From the IMG/VR virus record IMGVR_UViG_3300046167_000060, positions 1-35,752 of that record: a stretch of DNA of 35,752 nucleotides, one strand, 5' to 3'. Of this stretch, positions 2,374-35,752 are shown piece by piece. This DNA comes from a virus. Below the pieces are notes generated by a model. The model was not told the DNA's origin. It made no database searches and worked only from the letters and a program-made list of their open reading frames with translations. A program made the position numbers and the translations under genes. The first letter of the stretch is position 1; every line of letters begins with the position of its first letter.

Positions 2374-3021
2374 ATGTTGAAATTATCAAAAGCTAGCAAG
2401 ATGCCGTGTCGGTCATGGTCACTGCAAGCGTTAGACACTTGCCCGGCATCAAAGAAACGCGACGGATCATTAGTCGATGCTTGCAAAGGATGCTACGCAA
2501 CAACTGGCAACTATCGATTCAAGAACGTCAAAGCGCCACGTGAGCATAACAGAGAGGACTGGAAGCGTTCGGAGTGGGTCGCTGATATGGTGGCAGAGTT
2601 AGACAACGATCGTTATTTCCGATGGTTTGACAGCGGAGACGTTTACGATCTGCGCCTAGCTCAAAAGATCTTGGAAGTGATGACCGCTACGTCATGGGTG
2701 AAGCATTGGTTACCGACGCGGATGTATAAGTTTACAAAGTTTCGCGACGTACTCTCACAGATGGAAGCATTGCCTAACGTTGTGATTCGTCGATCATCTG
2801 ACAGTATTACCGGCGAGACTATCGAAGGCGTTACAACGTCCACCATTGCGACACTTGACAGTGTGCCAGAAGGCGCGACAGTCTGTGAGGCATACACGCG
2901 AGCGGGTAAGTGTGGAACGTGTAGGGCTTGCTGGTCAAAAGATGTGGCAGTTGTGTGTTACATCGGGCATGGCAAGACAATGGAAAAGAATCAACGCAAC
3001 ATCATAGCGAGGGCTGCATAA
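2374..3021 (+). CDS. GP88-like phage protein
   Basis: This 215-residue protein opens LKLSKASKMPCRSWSLQAL and then has TCP...ACKGCYATTG, the signature I associate with the phage 'gene product 88' family of unknown function. Cysteines cluster in two places: Cys12, Cys23, Cys37 and Cys40 near the N-terminus, and a CGTCRACW group near residue 180. A metal or Fe-S site is plausible. The central RYFRWFDSGDVYD motif is strongly acidic and aromatic. It follows the 52-aa gene by one base and shares its stop-start bases (TAATG) with the next gene, so it is part of the early operon. The biochemical role is unknown. Confidence 0.65.
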   Translation: MLKLSKASKMPCRSWSLQALDTCPASKKRDGSLVDACKGCYATTGNYRFKNVKAPREHNREDWKRSEWVADMVAELDNDRYFRWFDSGDVYDLRLAQKILEVMTATSWVKHWLPTRMYKFTKFRDVLSQMEALPNVVIRRSSDSITGETIEGVTTSTIATLDSVPEGATVCEAYTRAGKCGTCRACWSKDVAVVCYIGHGKTMEKNQRNIIARAA

Positions 3022-3299: not shown

Positions 3300-3524
3300 A
3301 TGAGAATCACTACAGCACATAGGTACTACGGCGGACCGGAAGGTGTAGGCAACAACGGTATTGTTATCGACACGGACAAGTTTTTGGTTGATGTCTACTT
3401 GACAAACAGATTTAAGCTATCAACGGCGTACATACCAGCGGATGAGTTTTGTGGTGCGGGTTACATCGCTTGGCTGGGATGGTTACATATTGAGATAACG
3501 ACACGTGAGGTATTAAAAGCGTGA
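3300..3524 (+). CDS. Hypothetical early protein (74 aa)
   Basis: The 74-residue product is soluble, with a mixed beta pattern (NNGIVIDTDKFLVDVYLTN). No family is recognised. It starts at ATG 3300, one base after the preceding stop, behind a degenerate copy of the early ribosome-binding module (AAACAATGGAG). Its stop overlaps the GTG start of the next gene, so it is translationally coupled to the sigma-region-4-like protein. Confidence 0.6.
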   Translation: MRITTAHRYYGGPEGVGNNGIVIDTDKFLVDVYLTNRFKLSTAYIPADEFCGAGYIAWLGWLHIEITTREVLKA

Positions 3525-3688
3525 CAAGTAAAAAGAAAGGTAAGCAGTATGATTACTTCATGACTCAGCAGCAGGTCGCTGATGCTATGGGTATCACACA
3601 GACGGACGTTAAAAGAATCGAGAGCAGGGCTATTGCAAAGCTCAAGCGGTCCGGTAAACTCGATAAATTCTTAGGAGCAAAGGAGTGA
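3521..3688 (+). CDS. Sigma70 region-4-like mini-protein (55 aa, helix-turn-helix)
   Basis: The frame starts at GTG 3521, overlapping the previous TGA (GTGA). Residues 15-50 read TQQQVADAMGITQTDVKRIE followed by SRAIAKLKRSGKLDKF. This matches the region 4.2 helix-turn-helix plan of sigma70 factors (Q-E-V-A...G-(V/I)-(T/S)...R-(V/I)-x-x-I-E-x-(R/K)-A-x-x-K-L). Only that domain is present: there is no region 2, so it cannot act alone as a sigma factor. It could bind promoter -35 DNA or the RNA polymerase beta flap and alter host promoter choice. A generic small HTH regulator is the alternative. Confidence 0.65.
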   Translation: MTSKKKGKQYDYFMTQQQVADAMGITQTDVKRIESRAIAKLKRSGKLDKFLGAKE

Positions 3689-3977: not shown

Positions 3978-4145
3978 ATGCACATGATTGGTATTCATAC
4001 AACATATATCATAGAGTTATACGACGACGTGTGGTCGCAGGTGTGGGCAATAGACTGTATTGAACAAGCGAAGCACTACGTTCACACAAAACGTGACAAT
4101 GGTAAACGATACAGAATTGTCAAGCATACAACGGAGGTTTTATGA
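3978..4145 (+). CDS. Hypothetical early protein (55 aa)
   Basis: ATG 3978 follows a strong AGGAGGAG ribosome-binding site. The 55-residue product (MHMIGIHTTYIIELYDDVW...) resembles small phage proteins with one beta-hairpin and a helix (DCIEQAKHYVH). No assigned function. Its stop overlaps the next ATG (TTATGA), so the two are coupled. Confidence 0.55.
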   Translation: MHMIGIHTTYIIELYDDVWSQVWAIDCIEQAKHYVHTKRDNGKRYRIVKHTTEVL

Positions 4146-4279
4146 ACAGTGAAAGAGAAAGCTGGGAAGTCTGGCACGACGACTACCAAGATTACTGGGA
4201 AGCAAAGGGAAATTACGCAGAGGAGTTTGAACAGGATGACATCGAAGAATATAAACGCTTGCGTGATGAAGAAAAGTAA
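4142..4279 (+). CDS. Acidic hypothetical protein (45 aa)
   Basis: ATG 4142 overlaps the preceding TGA and follows CGGAGG. The product is very acidic and tryptophan-rich (SWEVWHDDYQDYWEAKGNYA). Such small acidic proteins in phage early regions sometimes mimic DNA or inhibit host enzymes, but nothing here proves that. Confidence 0.5.
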   Translation: MNSERESWEVWHDDYQDYWEAKGNYAEEFEQDDIEEYKRLRDEEK

Positions 4280-4346
4280 TGTTAGACTCTATGCAGAAAG
4301 CATATAAGACCAACATTTTAATATTAACTTATAAGGTATTTATCCT

Positions 4347-4529
4347 ATGAGTATCTCTAAAGAGAGAAAGATTTCAGAGATTGTTGAACGGCAGCTAGAC
4401 TTGTTAACCATTACGGAAGCGTTAAACATAGCGGGTGGTTTCTTTTCTGAACTGTTAGAAGCAATGGACGACGGTGAGATTGACGAACTGTACACTGACA
4501 TGGGAGCTGGTAGACATGACATTCACTAA
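4347..4529 (+). CDS. Hypothetical protein upstream of primase (60 aa)
   Basis: The 60-residue helical, acidic protein (LDLLTITEALNIAGGFF, MDDGEIDELYTDM) has no recognised domain. A 67-base gap (4280-4346), AT-rich and holding TATAAG- and TAATAT-like sequences, precedes it. That is the first real gap in this arm and a possible promoter location, though I find no convincing -35. The gene overlaps the primase start by 14 bases. Confidence 0.55.
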   Translation: MSISKERKISEIVERQLDLLTITEALNIAGGFFSELLEAMDDGEIDELYTDMGAGRHDIH

Positions 4530-5301
4530 CACACACCAGCCTTGTCCTGACTGTGACAGCAGTGATGGGTTAGCGTATAACGAAGACGGCTCGACCAAGT
4601 GTTTTGTATGTGATATGTACACACCAGCCGCTAGGGTTAATAACGTCAGAGAGCTAGGTTCTATCAGCGATAAGCCTAAGCCGTCATTCACTCAGACTGA
4701 ACACCGTTTAATCACAGCGGAGTACCGTACTATCACCGACCGTTTAATCACAGGAACGACGGCGAAGAAGTACGCAGCCCTGAAGCAGGGAGACATCACA
4801 ACCTTTGGTTACTACAACCCTGACGATCCAACAAAGCCAGTGGCAGCGAAGGTTCGTAACCCTGACAAACGATTCAGTATCGTTGGTGATTGGAAGCAAG
4901 CAGGATTGTATGGACAGCATTTGTTTTCTGCGGGTGGTAAGTATGTAACCCTTGTTGAAGGTGAGTACGATGCGTTAGCGGCTTATCAAATGACAGGCTC
5001 AAAGTTTCCAGTAGTGTCCGTTCGCAACGGTGCGACTTCGGCGGCAAAGGACTGTCGCCTTTTTTATGATTGGCTGAACAGCTTCGAGAACATTGTTATA
5101 TGCTTCGATGCTGATGAGCCTGGACAGAAGGCATCAAAGGAATGTGCCGATCTGTTCGGTAACAAAGCAAGGATTGTTAAGCACGTCAACGGCTACAAGG
5201 ACGCGTGTGATTATCTTGTTAACAATCAAGCGGAAGCGTACACCAAAGTATTCTGGTCCTGCGCAACCGTACACACCCGAAGGTATCGTCGGTGCTGGTG
5301 A
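4516..5301 (+). CDS. DNA primase half of T7 gp4-type primase-helicase (frame broken)
   Basis: ATG 4516 is chosen because the protein there begins like T7-type primases, with a zinc ribbon (Cys10, Cys13, Cys29, Cys32). A longer upstream start would run through the previous gene. A TOPRIM domain follows, with Glu148/Glu150 in LVEGEYDALAAYQ and Asp198/Asp200 in ICFDADEPGQKA. Homology runs to residue 248 (VFWS), after which the frame gives 13 unrelated residues and stops. The helicase continues in the +1 frame. Removing one base near 5260 joins them into one protein of about 539 residues, close to T7 gp4 (566). A functional primase-only product is possible but not expected. Confidence 0.85.
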   Translation: MTFTNTHQPCPDCDSSDGLAYNEDGSTKCFVCDMYTPAARVNNVRELGSISDKPKPSFTQTEHRLITAEYRTITDRLITGTTAKKYAALKQGDITTFGYYNPDDPTKPVAAKVRNPDKRFSIVGDWKQAGLYGQHLFSAGGKYVTLVEGEYDALAAYQMTGSKFPVVSVRNGATSAAKDCRLFYDWLNSFENIVICFDADEPGQKASKECADLFGNKARIVKHVNGYKDACDYLVNNQAEAYTKVFWSCATVHTRRYRRCW

Positions 5302-6136
5302 GCTACGTGATCTGATTAAGAAGCCACTCACCAAGGCGAAGGTACAGTACCCATTCGAGGGGCTGAACAAACACCTGTATGGTATACGCACAGCAGAGCT
5401 GGTTACTATTTGTGCAGGCTCAGGACTGGGTAAGTCTACTCTACTACGTGAGGTGGTGTCGTCCATCATGGCGCAGTCAGAAGACAACCTTGGCTTGATG
5501 TTTCTTGAGGAGACACCCGAGCGTACCATGCGTGGACTGGTAGGTCTTGAGCTGAACAAGCCGATACACCTACCTGACTGTGAGTACGACGACCAAGACA
5601 TTGATCTTGTGTACGATACGATGGACTATGAGAACCGCGTCTATCTGTGGGAGCATTTCGGTAGTAACGAGATTGAAAATGTACTGGGCCGTATGAGATA
5701 CTTCGTCAAAGTCTTAGGCGTACGTTATATCGTACTCGATCACGTCTCTATCCTTGTGTCTGACCAGAGTAACGGTGATGAGCGACGTGCTTTGGATATG
5801 ATTATGACTAAGCTGCGGACGTTCGTACAGGAGATGGGGATTTGTATGTTCCTTGTAAGCCACCTACGACGCCCTGAAGGGAAGCAACTGGAGGACGGTG
5901 CTGTTACTTCACTTGGTATGTTACGTGGCTCTGCGTCGATTGCACAGCTCTCTGATGCGGTCATCGGTGCTGAACGTAACAGTCAGAGTGATGATCCCAT
6001 TGTTAGAAACACGACCGTGCTGCGTGTGTTGAAGAACAGGTACACGGGAAAGACTGGTAAAGCCTGTGAAGTATTCTACAATGAAGCAACAGGTAGATTG
6101 ACACAGCGCGAGGAGAAGCATGATGATATCTTATAA
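5093..6136 (+). CDS. Replicative DNA helicase half of T7 gp4-type primase-helicase
   Basis: The frame is open from 5093, but family-like sequence starts only at about 5261 (AQPYTPEGIVGAGEL, the primase-helicase linker). DnaB/RecA-type motifs follow: Walker A AGSGLGKST, FLEETPERT, Walker B YIVLDHVSIL, SHLRRPEG, and an LRVLKNRYTGKTG arginine region near the end. It should unwind DNA 5'-3' at the fork as a hexamer using NTPs. Residues before the linker are an out-of-frame reading of the primase gene. No convincing start exists for a separate helicase, which supports one interrupted gene. Confidence 0.85.
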   Translation: MLYASMLMSLDRRHQRNVPICSVTKQGLLSTSTATRTRVIILLTIKRKRTPKYSGPAQPYTPEGIVGAGELRDLIKKPLTKAKVQYPFEGLNKHLYGIRTAELVTICAGSGLGKSTLLREVVSSIMAQSEDNLGLMFLEETPERTMRGLVGLELNKPIHLPDCEYDDQDIDLVYDTMDYENRVYLWEHFGSNEIENVLGRMRYFVKVLGVRYIVLDHVSILVSDQSNGDERRALDMIMTKLRTFVQEMGICMFLVSHLRRPEGKQLEDGAVTSLGMLRGSASIAQLSDAVIGAERNSQSDDPIVRNTTVLRVLKNRYTGKTGKACEVFYNEATGRLTQREEKHDDIL

Positions 6137-6623
6137 GCTAGGAAAGAACGAACAGAAAGTTTGTCAATCCATTGCAAAGATGCGTTATGAAAACGCCAGA
6201 GAGAAAGGTTTTGGACAGGATAAAAACGTAGTTAATGTAGATTCTTACAAGAACATTGACGTTGATGGTGTCGGCTCTGAGATGGCAGCAGCTAAGATTC
6301 TAAATGTGTATTACGATATTGAGACAGATTTTCAAGCAAGCGACTTACCAGCACATGATATTATACACAATGGTAAAACTATTGATGTGAAGACAACGAA
6401 GTACAAAACAGGTAGGCTTATTGTCATGCCCCACAAGAAACACGATAAGTGTGAGTTGTACTTGTTAGTAGTAGGGGAGTTTCCTGAGTATACTGTAGTT
6501 GGTTACGCTACTTACAATCATATAGTACAAGAGGAAAACTGGGGTGATCCTTTTGGTCGTAACAGACCCGCATATTTCTTAGATCAGGATAAACTGACAC
6601 CCGTAGAGGAACTAATTGAATGA
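6123..6623 (+). CDS. PD-(D/E)XK-type nuclease
   Basis: The 166-residue protein carries the PD-(D/E)XK core pattern: Glu53 (VGSEMAAAKIL), Asp79 (PAHDII) and Asp88-X-Lys90 (TIDVKTTKY). It is probably a metal-dependent DNA endonuclease or resolvase-like enzyme in replication or host DNA breakdown. Two ATGs (6120, 6123) are possible; 6123 has the better spacing to AGGAG at 6111-6115. It overlaps the end of the helicase gene and its stop overlaps the next start (ATGA). The exact substrate is unknown. The family call rests on motif spacing. Confidence 0.65.
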   Translation: MISYKLGKNEQKVCQSIAKMRYENAREKGFGQDKNVVNVDSYKNIDVDGVGSEMAAAKILNVYYDIETDFQASDLPAHDIIHNGKTIDVKTTKYKTGRLIVMPHKKHDKCELYLLVVGEFPEYTVVGYATYNHIVQEENWGDPFGRNRPAYFLDQDKLTPVEELIE

Positions 6624-28953: not shown

Positions 28954-29751
28954 TTATTTTACTCGACCCTCCGCATAAGCTGCCATAATCTCATCGGCTA
29001 ATGCTGTATAACGGTCTGGGTCTGTTCTCATAAGTTTAATAATATCGGCCCGACGATATACTTTCTTCCTTGTCCCTTGGTTACTGCCTCGTGCATTACC
29101 TGTACTAGCTGCTTTTAGTGTTTGCTTCCGTGCCTGTTTTTCAACATTGACAGTCTGTTGTGCAACTACTTTACGTTCTTTCCAGAGTGTAAATAGCTCA
29201 TCAGCAGAATCAGAATCATAACCTTGGTCAGCCGCTACAAATAACTGAGTCCTAATCTTAGATCCTTTGATCCATTCTGCAAACTTAGGGTCTCCTAGTA
29301 TTGTTTGCATATCTGGATGTTTAGCTTGAAGCGTAGCAAGAGACGACTGCTTTTTGTATTCAACAGTGTAATGCTCTGCTTCTCTAATTTTAGGATGGTT
29401 CTCAATAGCACGATTAACAGCACCTTGTGGGTCAGTGAAGTAATCTATATCTTCTTCAGGCTCAACGTATTGTTGAGGTGCTTGCGCGGGTGCTTGACTA
29501 CTAATGTAATCATCAACCACTTTACGAAGTTCTCCTACCTCACCAGACTGACGACCTAAAAGCTTTTCAGCTTCTTGGTGCATCTGTACGACTTCTTCCA
29601 GCGACTTACCTTGATACTTCTCTGGAACGGTAGACTGCTCTTGAGGTTGCTCAGTTACTTCTTCTTCGTACTGAGTCTCATTTGCTTGTTCGTTTATATC
29701 ATCCGCGTTTTCCACTTCGGGTTGCGGGTCAACTAATGTTGCTCTTGACAT
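28954..29751 (-). CDS. Scaffolding protein
   Basis: This 265-residue protein has a very acidic, disordered N-terminus (ENADDINEQANETQYEEEV), a Gln/Glu helical middle and a basic helical C-terminus (RKKVYRRADIIKLM, YAEGRVK). The plan and its place just upstream of the capsid gene are characteristic of scaffolds. It templates procapsid assembly through its basic C-terminal helices and exits before or during packaging. CGGAG lies upstream of ATG 29751. Confidence 0.8.
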   Translation of the reverse strand: MSRATLVDPQPEVENADDINEQANETQYEEEVTEQPQEQSTVPEKYQGKSLEEVVQMHQEAEKLLGRQSGEVGELRKVVDDYISSQAPAQAPQQYVEPEEDIDYFTDPQGAVNRAIENHPKIREAEHYTVEYKKQSSLATLQAKHPDMQTILGDPKFAEWIKGSKIRTQLFVAADQGYDSDSADELFTLWKERKVVAQQTVNVEKQARKQTLKAASTGNARGSNQGTRKKVYRRADIIKLMRTDPDRYTALADEIMAAYAEGRVK

Positions 29752-29765
29752 TATTAATCTCCGTG

Positions 29766-29794
29766 ATTATAATCATTATGGAGTTACTATTTAC
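29766..29794 (-). promoter_or_regulatory. Weak promoter candidate before scaffold gene
   Basis: A consensus TATAAT lies at 29766-29771 (- strand) inside a perfect 12-bp palindrome TGATTATAATCA (29764-29775), just upstream of the scaffold ribosome-binding site. No good -35 is visible at 16-18 bp. An activated promoter or chance are both possible. Confidence 0.3.
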
Positions 29795-30274: not shown

Positions 30275-30303
30275 AGTATATCATGTTTTTTCTTAGGTGT
30301 CAA
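30275..30303 (-). promoter_or_regulatory. Sigma70-type promoter with extended -10, driving head genes
   Basis: On the - strand: TTGACA (30298-30303), a 17-bp spacer, TATACT (30275-30280), and TG one base upstream of the -10 (TGATATACT). The -10 lies in a 15-bp palindrome (TATACTA-A-TAGTATA, 30266-30280). The -35 overlaps the upstream stop codon. The match to the bacterial consensus is near-perfect. It should strongly express the 84-aa, zinc-ribbon, scaffold and capsid genes up to the terminator at 27908. Confidence 0.8.
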
Positions 30304-34559: not shown

Positions 34560-34897
34560 ATAACAGGAGTAGATCCTCTTGTATCAACATGTACAAAGTC
34601 GTCAGCAATACCTATTCCTGTAAATCCTAGCTCAATAGCCTTTGTTACTATCTTAAGGCGAAACACGGCATTTGTTATTTTTATATCCGCCGCGATCCCC
34701 TGAGCGTGAGTGCCGGGTACTTCTTTCTTAGCCTCTATCGGATGATCAGTTGGGTGTCGATACCCACTGGTGATAGTGAAAGGAAACCCGCACGCGTCTC
34801 TTAACTCGTCCATCTTCTCTAGGAAGTCTTTCTCCATGTTGTTATGCCCAGTAACCTGACAATTAAACTCTGAAGGGTCAAAATGCTTAAGATTCAT
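34547..34897 (-). CDS. M15-family peptidase, putative endolysin
   Basis: The 116-residue enzyme has the M15 (D-Ala-D-Ala carboxypeptidase/VanY-like) zinc site: SGYRHP, His64 and Asp71 (GTHAQGIAADI) and His103 (FVHVDTR). It should cleave peptidoglycan peptides during lysis. No signal peptide is visible, so it needs the holin at 23258. It lies between the two terminase genes, away from the holin cassette, which is unusual. It overlaps both neighbours by 11-13 bases. Confidence 0.88.
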   Translation of the reverse strand: MNLKHFDPSEFNCQVTGHNNMEKDFLEKMDELRDACGFPFTITSGYRHPTDHPIEAKKEVPGTHAQGIAADIKITNAVFRLKIVTKAIELGFTGIGIADDFVHVDTRGSTPVMWTY

Positions 34898-35267
34898 CTA
34901 CTACTTCTCCTTCAATGATTGTAGGTTCAGGTACTTCTACCGCACCAACACCACTAATGTTGATCTGAATGGCGTTACGTCCACCATCTTTAACAATATC
35001 CTTCTCAAAAGCCGCAACAGGTAGTATTCTGTCCATAACAAGCTTCCACGCTGCCGCTTGATTCTTATGATCATGGTCTAATGCAGCGTCAAAGATAGTA
35101 TCAAGCACCTTTCTGGACTTCGGTGAAGCTAACATCCGTGCTTTGTATTCGTTAATAACAGCAGCGTCACCCTTTGGGCGACCAACAGCGTTGCGACTTC
35201 CTTTTTTAACAGAAGAAACATCGTTTTTACGTGGTCTTCCACGTTTCCGTTTAACAGGAACAGTCAT
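34887..35267 (-). CDS. Putative terminase small subunit (AT-hook-like DNA-binding)
   Basis: The 126-residue protein has two basic GRP motifs near the N-terminus (KRKRGRPRKN and AVGRPKGD), an AT-hook-like pattern. A central helical part follows (VLDTIFDAALDHDHKNQAAA), then an acidic C-terminus (IEGEVVDES). First gene of the late arm, upstream of the lysin and large terminase, so recognition of packaging DNA is the likely role. Identity as small terminase rests on position and DNA-binding features. GAGGG lies upstream of ATG 35267. Confidence 0.65.
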   Translation of the reverse strand: MTVPVKRKRGRPRKNDVSSVKKGSRNAVGRPKGDAAVINEYKARMLASPKSRKVLDTIFDAALDHDHKNQAAAWKLVMDRILPVAAFEKDIVKDGGRNAIQINISGVGAVEVPEPTIIEGEVVDES

Positions 35268-35274
35268 ATGACCC

Positions 35275-35378
35275 TCTTTAAAGACTCTTTAAAGATGCTT
35301 GTATGCCTTATAAGTTAAACATTTAATAATTATCATATAATATTTATCATATAAGGTGCAGTAAAGAATCTTTAAAGA
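35275..35378. repeat. TCTTTAAAGA palindromes in the late leader
   Basis: The perfect 10-bp palindrome TCTTTAAAGA occurs at 35275-35284, 35286-35295 (11 bp apart, one helical turn) and 35369-35378. Between them TTATCATATAA occurs twice (35330-35340, 35344-35354). All lie in the transcribed leader between the right-end promoter and the small terminase gene. They could be operator sites or RNA-processing signals. Confidence 0.6.
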
Positions 35379-35401
35379 GTAATTTCTAAGTCTATACTAA
35401 T

Positions 35402-35430
35402 AGTATATCATAAAAAATACTAAAAAGCAA
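35402..35430 (-). promoter_or_regulatory. Late promoter with extended -10, upstream of packaging genes
   Basis: On the - strand TATACT (35402-35407) is preceded by TGA (extended -10, TGATATACT). The -35 at 17 bp is weak (TTGCTT, 35425-35430). The sequence 35393-35411 is identical over 19 bases to the other late promoter at 30266-30284, including the 15-bp palindrome TATACTA-A-TAGTATA (35393-35407). The shared block suggests one regulator or holoenzyme acts on both. It starts the long - strand transcript. Confidence 0.7.
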
Positions 35431-35606: not shown

Positions 35607-35752
35607 ACACACGCACACGCCGCAGTCACAGCCCCTCCCCCGGCCCAGTTATCCACAGGTTATCAACAAAGTTATCCACAGCTTAGTTCCAAAACAGAAC
35701 CTACTCAGTACCAAAACAGAACTAACTAGGTGAGGTGTGAGTGTCTAGGTTG
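35607..35752. repeat. Right copy of 146-bp direct terminal repeat
   Basis: Exact copy of 1-146, starting ACACACGCACACGCC and ending in GTGTCTAGGTTG. It includes a second copy of the DnaA-box cluster at 35649-35680. If the repeat is physical, a linear genome would carry an origin-like box cluster at both ends; if it is an assembly overlap, there is only one. Confidence 0.95.

Follow-up and report, generated by a model that had tools for sequence, protein, structure and literature searches.

Several small proteins of phage T4 are known to retune the RNA polymerase of the host by acting on the beta-flap or on region 4 of sigma, among them AsiA, which works together with the activator MotA, and gp33 (PMC2988021, PMC6755090); a structure of gp33 with the flap is listed in PMC4496699. 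In the host factor, sigma region 4 touches the flap via residues in or near helices H1, H2 and H5, while the -35 element is read by H3-H4 (PMC2988021); the flap-tip helix is a contact of region 4.2 (PMC7948647). Closer in size to the protein described here are the 'Sigma70_r4 domain containing proteins' of uncultured Caudovirales (BFVD A0A6J5LV43, A0A6J5KJE7, A0A6J5N2N3), which have 54-75 residues and are annotated with region 4 only. Homology to sigma region 4.2 and the occurrence of small phage proteins with region 4 only are already on record at the level of annotation. Searches of the open-licence literature gave neither a paper describing such a stand-alone region-4 protein in a phage nor a characterised system with this architecture.

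The window, that is, the whole stretch of 35,752 nucleotides analysed here, begins and ends with the same 146 bp in direct orientation (1-146 and 35607-35752) and is apparently a complete genome of ~35.6 kb, terminally redundant or circularly permuted. The absence of RNA polymerase and sigma genes therefore concerns an apparently complete genome. No RNA polymerase of the T7 type (PF00940), the type to which this absence refers, was detected in the window, whose leftward structural block holds large ORFs without assignment, or in 11 related virus records (positive control HTVC019P, 4e-106). Sigma region 2 (PF04542) was found neither in the window nor in nine related records, with matches in the control genomes, and a profile scan of the window gave no second region 4. 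These searches agree with the earlier note, in which neither a phage RNA polymerase nor a full sigma factor had been found, and the PF04542 search gave no separate region 2 partner such as a split sigma factor would have. The DNA polymerase is nearest to those of pelagiphages HTVC103P/104P (49% identity), the portal protein is distantly related to that of HMO-2011-type phages (about 24%), and a DNA-level search with the first 25 kb of the window gave no near relative in INPHARED. Nor did any INPHARED isolate emerge as a relative with good coverage. Two copies of TTATCCACA and one of TTATCAACA, resembling DnaA boxes, lie inside the terminal repeat (35647-35685) and are a possible replication origin. 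The protein encoded at the position of the small terminase (34887-35267, minus strand) has an AT-hook-like motif at its start (PF02178; its 19.9 bits exceed the cut-off).

The mini-protein gene (Table 1) lies in a rightward early/replication block, between GP88 (2374-3021) and the primase-helicase (4474-6136). Its frame runs for 55 codons to a TGA at 3686-3688 and encodes MTSKKKGKQYDYFMTQQQVADAMGITQTDVKRIESRAIAKLKRSGKLDKFLGAKE; the GTG start and the stop of the upstream gene overlap. In the window, primase and helicase are in two frames, whereas in the five relatives examined they form one continuous frame of ~540-555 codons from the primase match on; the split in the window reflects either a shift of frame by one base or an error in the sequence.

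Table 1. Positions of the mini-protein gene, its helices, its neighbours and the promoters discussed in the text
Feature	Position	Strand	Remarks
Sigma 4.2-like mini-protein gene	3521..3688	+	GTG start, 55 aa, stop included; open frame, Pfam and family evidence
Upstream gene, 74 aa, left edge of variable slot	3300..3524	+	Stop overlaps mini-protein start
Downstream gene, 85 aa	3707..3964	+	Where relatives lack the mini-protein, 16-19 bp after ORF 3300-3524
First HTH helix (sigma H3), residues 16-23	3566..3589	+	AlphaFold2 models, mean pLDDT 80 and 81
Recognition helix (sigma H4), residues 27-44	3599..3652	+	AlphaFold2 models; SigA/RpoD alignment
H5-like tail GKLDKFLGAKE, residues 45-55	3653..3685	+	Profile alignment to SigA/RpoD C-terminus; low family entropy; helix in model
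Late promoter, TTGCTT-17-TATACT, extended -10	35397..35425 (approximate)	-	Allelic, unlinked to the mini-protein
Promoter upstream of scaffold/capsid genes, TTGACA-17-TATACT with TG	30275..30303	-	Near-consensus extended -10 sigma70

The Pfam family PF04545 (Sigma70_r4) matches the mini-protein with 33.9 bits, above its cut-off of 24.1, and is the only family to pass. The match spans profile positions 21-49 of 50, which correspond to region 4.2, and the region 4.1 half is unmatched. The next family, HTH_3, stays below its own cut-off for the window protein. Sigma70_r4 was matched at E<=0.001 by all 12 diverse family members, and a resemblance to HTH_3, with lower scores, was seen in eight of them. 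When the family profile was used for the search, the best solved relatives were SigA/RpoD region 4.2 (E 2e-8), and the alignment extends through H5 to the last residues of RpoD/SigA with a three-residue gap, pairing L47, F50 and L51 of the mini-protein with L607, F610 and L611 (E. coli numbering). Residues Q27, T28, K31 and R32 align with R584, E585, R588 and Q589 of sigma70, which we take to be the residues reading the -35 element, and all four are changed. The mini-protein is homologous to RpoD/SigA over H3-H4-H5 and has the same predicted HTH fold, but it lacks regions 1-3, including region 2, and helices H1-H2 of region 4. The earlier view of a stand-alone, 55-residue product resembling the region 4.2 helix-turn-helix is borne out, with the H5 similarity in addition; a profile assignment to an unrelated HTH family, which the earlier note had allowed for, did not emerge, and identity as another HTH family was rejected on the Pfam and profile scores. 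LuxR/GerE-type and HTH_3 regulators have a comparable HTH fold, but their sequence scores are below that of Sigma70_r4. T4 AsiA and gp33 are not among the matches listed for the mini-protein in the sequence-profile and structure searches, and whereas AsiA has the partner activator MotA, none was identified here.

Two AlphaFold2 models predict the H3 and H4 helices with pLDDT mostly above 90 over residues 16-44, in agreement with an HTH fold. The H5-like helix covers residues 47-51 in one model; the other model shows it shorter and with lower confidence. SigF region 4 leads the Foldseek matches and SigA the VIA matches, all with weak E-values and Z-scores, and LuxR-type HTHs (DosR, LiaR and GerE among the matches) score about equally, so that comparison of the predicted structures cannot separate sigma 4.2 from LuxR-type HTHs. 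The predicted fold is also similar to that of the BFVD proteins, which were compared by fold and annotation, the Foldseek E-values being weak (0.13-0.42).

A protein search returned 29 good relatives in virus contigs. Two further divergent types, B (LHRITVQKIERDALKKLK) and C (pattern LTRSEVQQAE..GL.KLK), were found in the mini-protein slot when the conserved helicase was used as query (80 loci, 95-100% identical) and the loci were then scanned with a profile. Types A, B and C occupy one slot, with constant synteny, upstream of a near-identical primase-helicase whose helicase is 96-100% identical, and their recognition helices differ (ITQTDVKRIE, LHRITVQKIE and LTRSEVQQAE, respectively). A wider profile scan revealed more types in more distant relatives. 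The 117 loci, a count that exceeds that of the phages since it includes some contigs repeatedly, reduce to 44 distinct cores, of which 42 are phage-borne and two, from cellular MAGs, represent a different protein. A cellular origin was rejected, as the genome scan had matched only 22-28 residues in MAG proteins of another architecture. Within types, pN/pS is 0.17 (A), 0.10 (B), 0.19 (C) and 0.23 (D), compared with 0.54 in the mixed remainder group, and the recovered loci contain no internal stops. As judged from the 42 distinct phage cores, the low within-type pN/pS and the divergent types in a constant slot, the mini-protein is the product of a real gene under purifying selection and not of a chance ORF. 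The most sigma-like variant (ISRQMVRVIEYKALRKLS) is located at 363-611 on the minus strand of locus L120, and its apparent start falls, in a different frame, within a homologue of the window's ORF 4142-4279.

Entropy at the four positions assumed to face DNA is 1.49 bits, whereas H3 has 0.87 and the tail 0.80, a difference to be read with the facts that the recognition helix is only moderately more diverse than the rest, that other exposed positions vary equally, and that the search pattern of the wider profile scan favoured the tail motif, so that tail conservation is partly its product. For these reasons, recognition specificity may plausibly have been rewritten.

The 43 distinct syntenic segments comprise 13 with type A, 11 with type B, six with type C and 13 without the mini-protein. 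In loci L036, L038, L073, L092, L096 and L097 the slot is empty, with the flanking genes at the close spacing given in Table 1. In L041, L054, L063, L064, L069-L071 and L077 it is filled by an unrelated ORF of 62 aa, which is well conserved (8683-8871 in L041) and has the matching place in the others. PF04545 is not matched anywhere in a 37.7-kb relative. The idea that gene-less relatives hide a divergent copy was rejected on the basis of these slots and of the 37.7-kb relative, with the reservation that fragments could hold a copy elsewhere. From this distribution, we conclude that the mini-protein gene is accessory. It looks optional, and not like a late-gene switch, because close relatives without it keep the same late promoters.

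We regard the mini-protein as probably an accessory early DNA-binding regulator made of the primary-sigma helices H3-H4-H5, with recognition residues unlike those of sigma70 (probability roughly 0.55). This is the most economical account. With only H3-H4-H5 kept, the HTH should still face DNA with altered reading residues, and partial flap contact could persist. The C-terminal part of a primary sigma factor would have become a minimal regulator, encoded in the early/replication block of a phage that lacks a polymerase and seems to depend on sigma70 promoters of the host type. It would bind DNA through H4, with a specificity other than the host -35 element, and would tune transcription by the host polymerase at phage or host promoters early in infection, and H5, which it retains, might dock it on the beta-flap; it would not be required at late promoters. 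The protein is without H1-H2 and hence without most of the known flap-binding surface; H5 is kept, and by analogy with sigma a flap contact through this helix is possible.

Host takeover by protein contact would need no DNA site. The mini-protein would use H5 to bind the beta-flap, or would bind a sigma-4 partner, and so weaken region 4 of host sigma70. As described above, H5 is one of the flap contacts of sigma (PMC2988021) and region 4.2 meets the flap-tip helix (PMC7948647). All types conserve the H5-like tail well, as far as the search pattern allows this to be read. The change of all four presumed -35-reading residues in the window protein also points in this direction. However, the other flap-contacting helices are missing, and blocking host sigma70 would harm the phage too, because this group has late promoters close to the sigma70 consensus. 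We consider takeover by contact unlikely, but deserving of weight.

The allelic recognition helices at one locus of near-identical phages recall immunity groups, and the HTH_3 resemblance of eight members would also suit a repressor, acting on its own operon or on superinfecting relatives. On the other hand, no integrase or lysogeny gene was found among the ORFs scanned, and no type-specific operator was seen in the control region examined, so repression in this sense appears quite doubtful. The same allelic variation may be read in terms of exchangeable promoter-specificity cassettes, in which a constant H5 docks on the host flap and a variable H4 reads a new -35-like element. If this were true, swapping a 55-residue gene would direct the host polymerase to different promoter sets in otherwise near-identical phages; we hold it to be improbable.

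The earlier note saw the protein as a candidate to redirect host polymerase, for example by occupying the beta flap or the -35, and connected this with the late promoter at 35402; on that view it would be a late-gene activator standing in for sigma region 4 where the -35 is weak. In the window itself the -35 at this promoter is indeed weak and the -10 extended, but comparison with relatives detaches this feature from the gene. The promoter occurs as three alleles, TTGACA/TACAAT, TTGCTT/TATACT (window) and TTGTGG/TACAAT, all with an extended -10. Strong and weak -35 elements number 13 and 3 with the gene and 6 and 3 without it (Fisher p=0.63, 25 distinct control regions), where 'without' means no profile match in the locus, some loci are fragments, and L075, L068 and L084 differ in the early region. 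Both weak alleles are also present in relatives without a detected gene, and most gene carriers have a perfect TTGACA. The control region upstream of the terminase genes can be aligned by eye across close relatives, whether they have type A, B or C or no mini-protein, and in the one control region examined there was no tracking of mini-protein type. Upstream of the scaffold/capsid genes, TTGACA-17-TG.-TATA(A/C)T is found in nearly all closer relatives, with and without the gene, so the link to the 30275 promoter that had also been envisaged falls away together with that to 35402. Since the gene is, in addition, cleanly absent from close relatives, a late-gene activator is very improbable, and the simplest reading is that the late genes use ordinary host sigma70 promoters. 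A non-functional remnant of a captured sigma gene, for which the shortness and sporadic absence of the mini-protein might speak, is scarcely credible in the face of pN/pS values well below 1 and recovered loci free of internal stops.

Two further elements were observed. The palindrome CTTWWAAG occurs 13 times in the window, with 4.2 expected and none of 100 shuffles reaching 13; sites lie at 35276-35377, 4328-4335 and 6130-6137, and four are clustered upstream of the terminase genes, a possible operator array. The clustered sites are kept in relatives with and without the mini-protein. Because their control region persists without the gene, the palindromes need no mini-protein, and CTTWWAAG was rejected as its binding site. 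At 29745-29773 on the plus strand, opposite to the late genes, a perfect TTGACA-17-TATAAT adjoins a hairpin.

A promoter link that was inferred from one genome vanishes once relatives are added. The exchange of alleles is the most interesting feature of this locus. A phage that brings no RNA polymerase has to steer that of its host, and to our knowledge most of the phage factors that do so are unrelated to sigma. Here, a 55-residue piece of sigma is under selection, in several versions at one locus, in an abundant group of uncultured marine phages. The mini-protein offers a tractable test of a minimal sigma region 4 acting on DNA or on polymerase.
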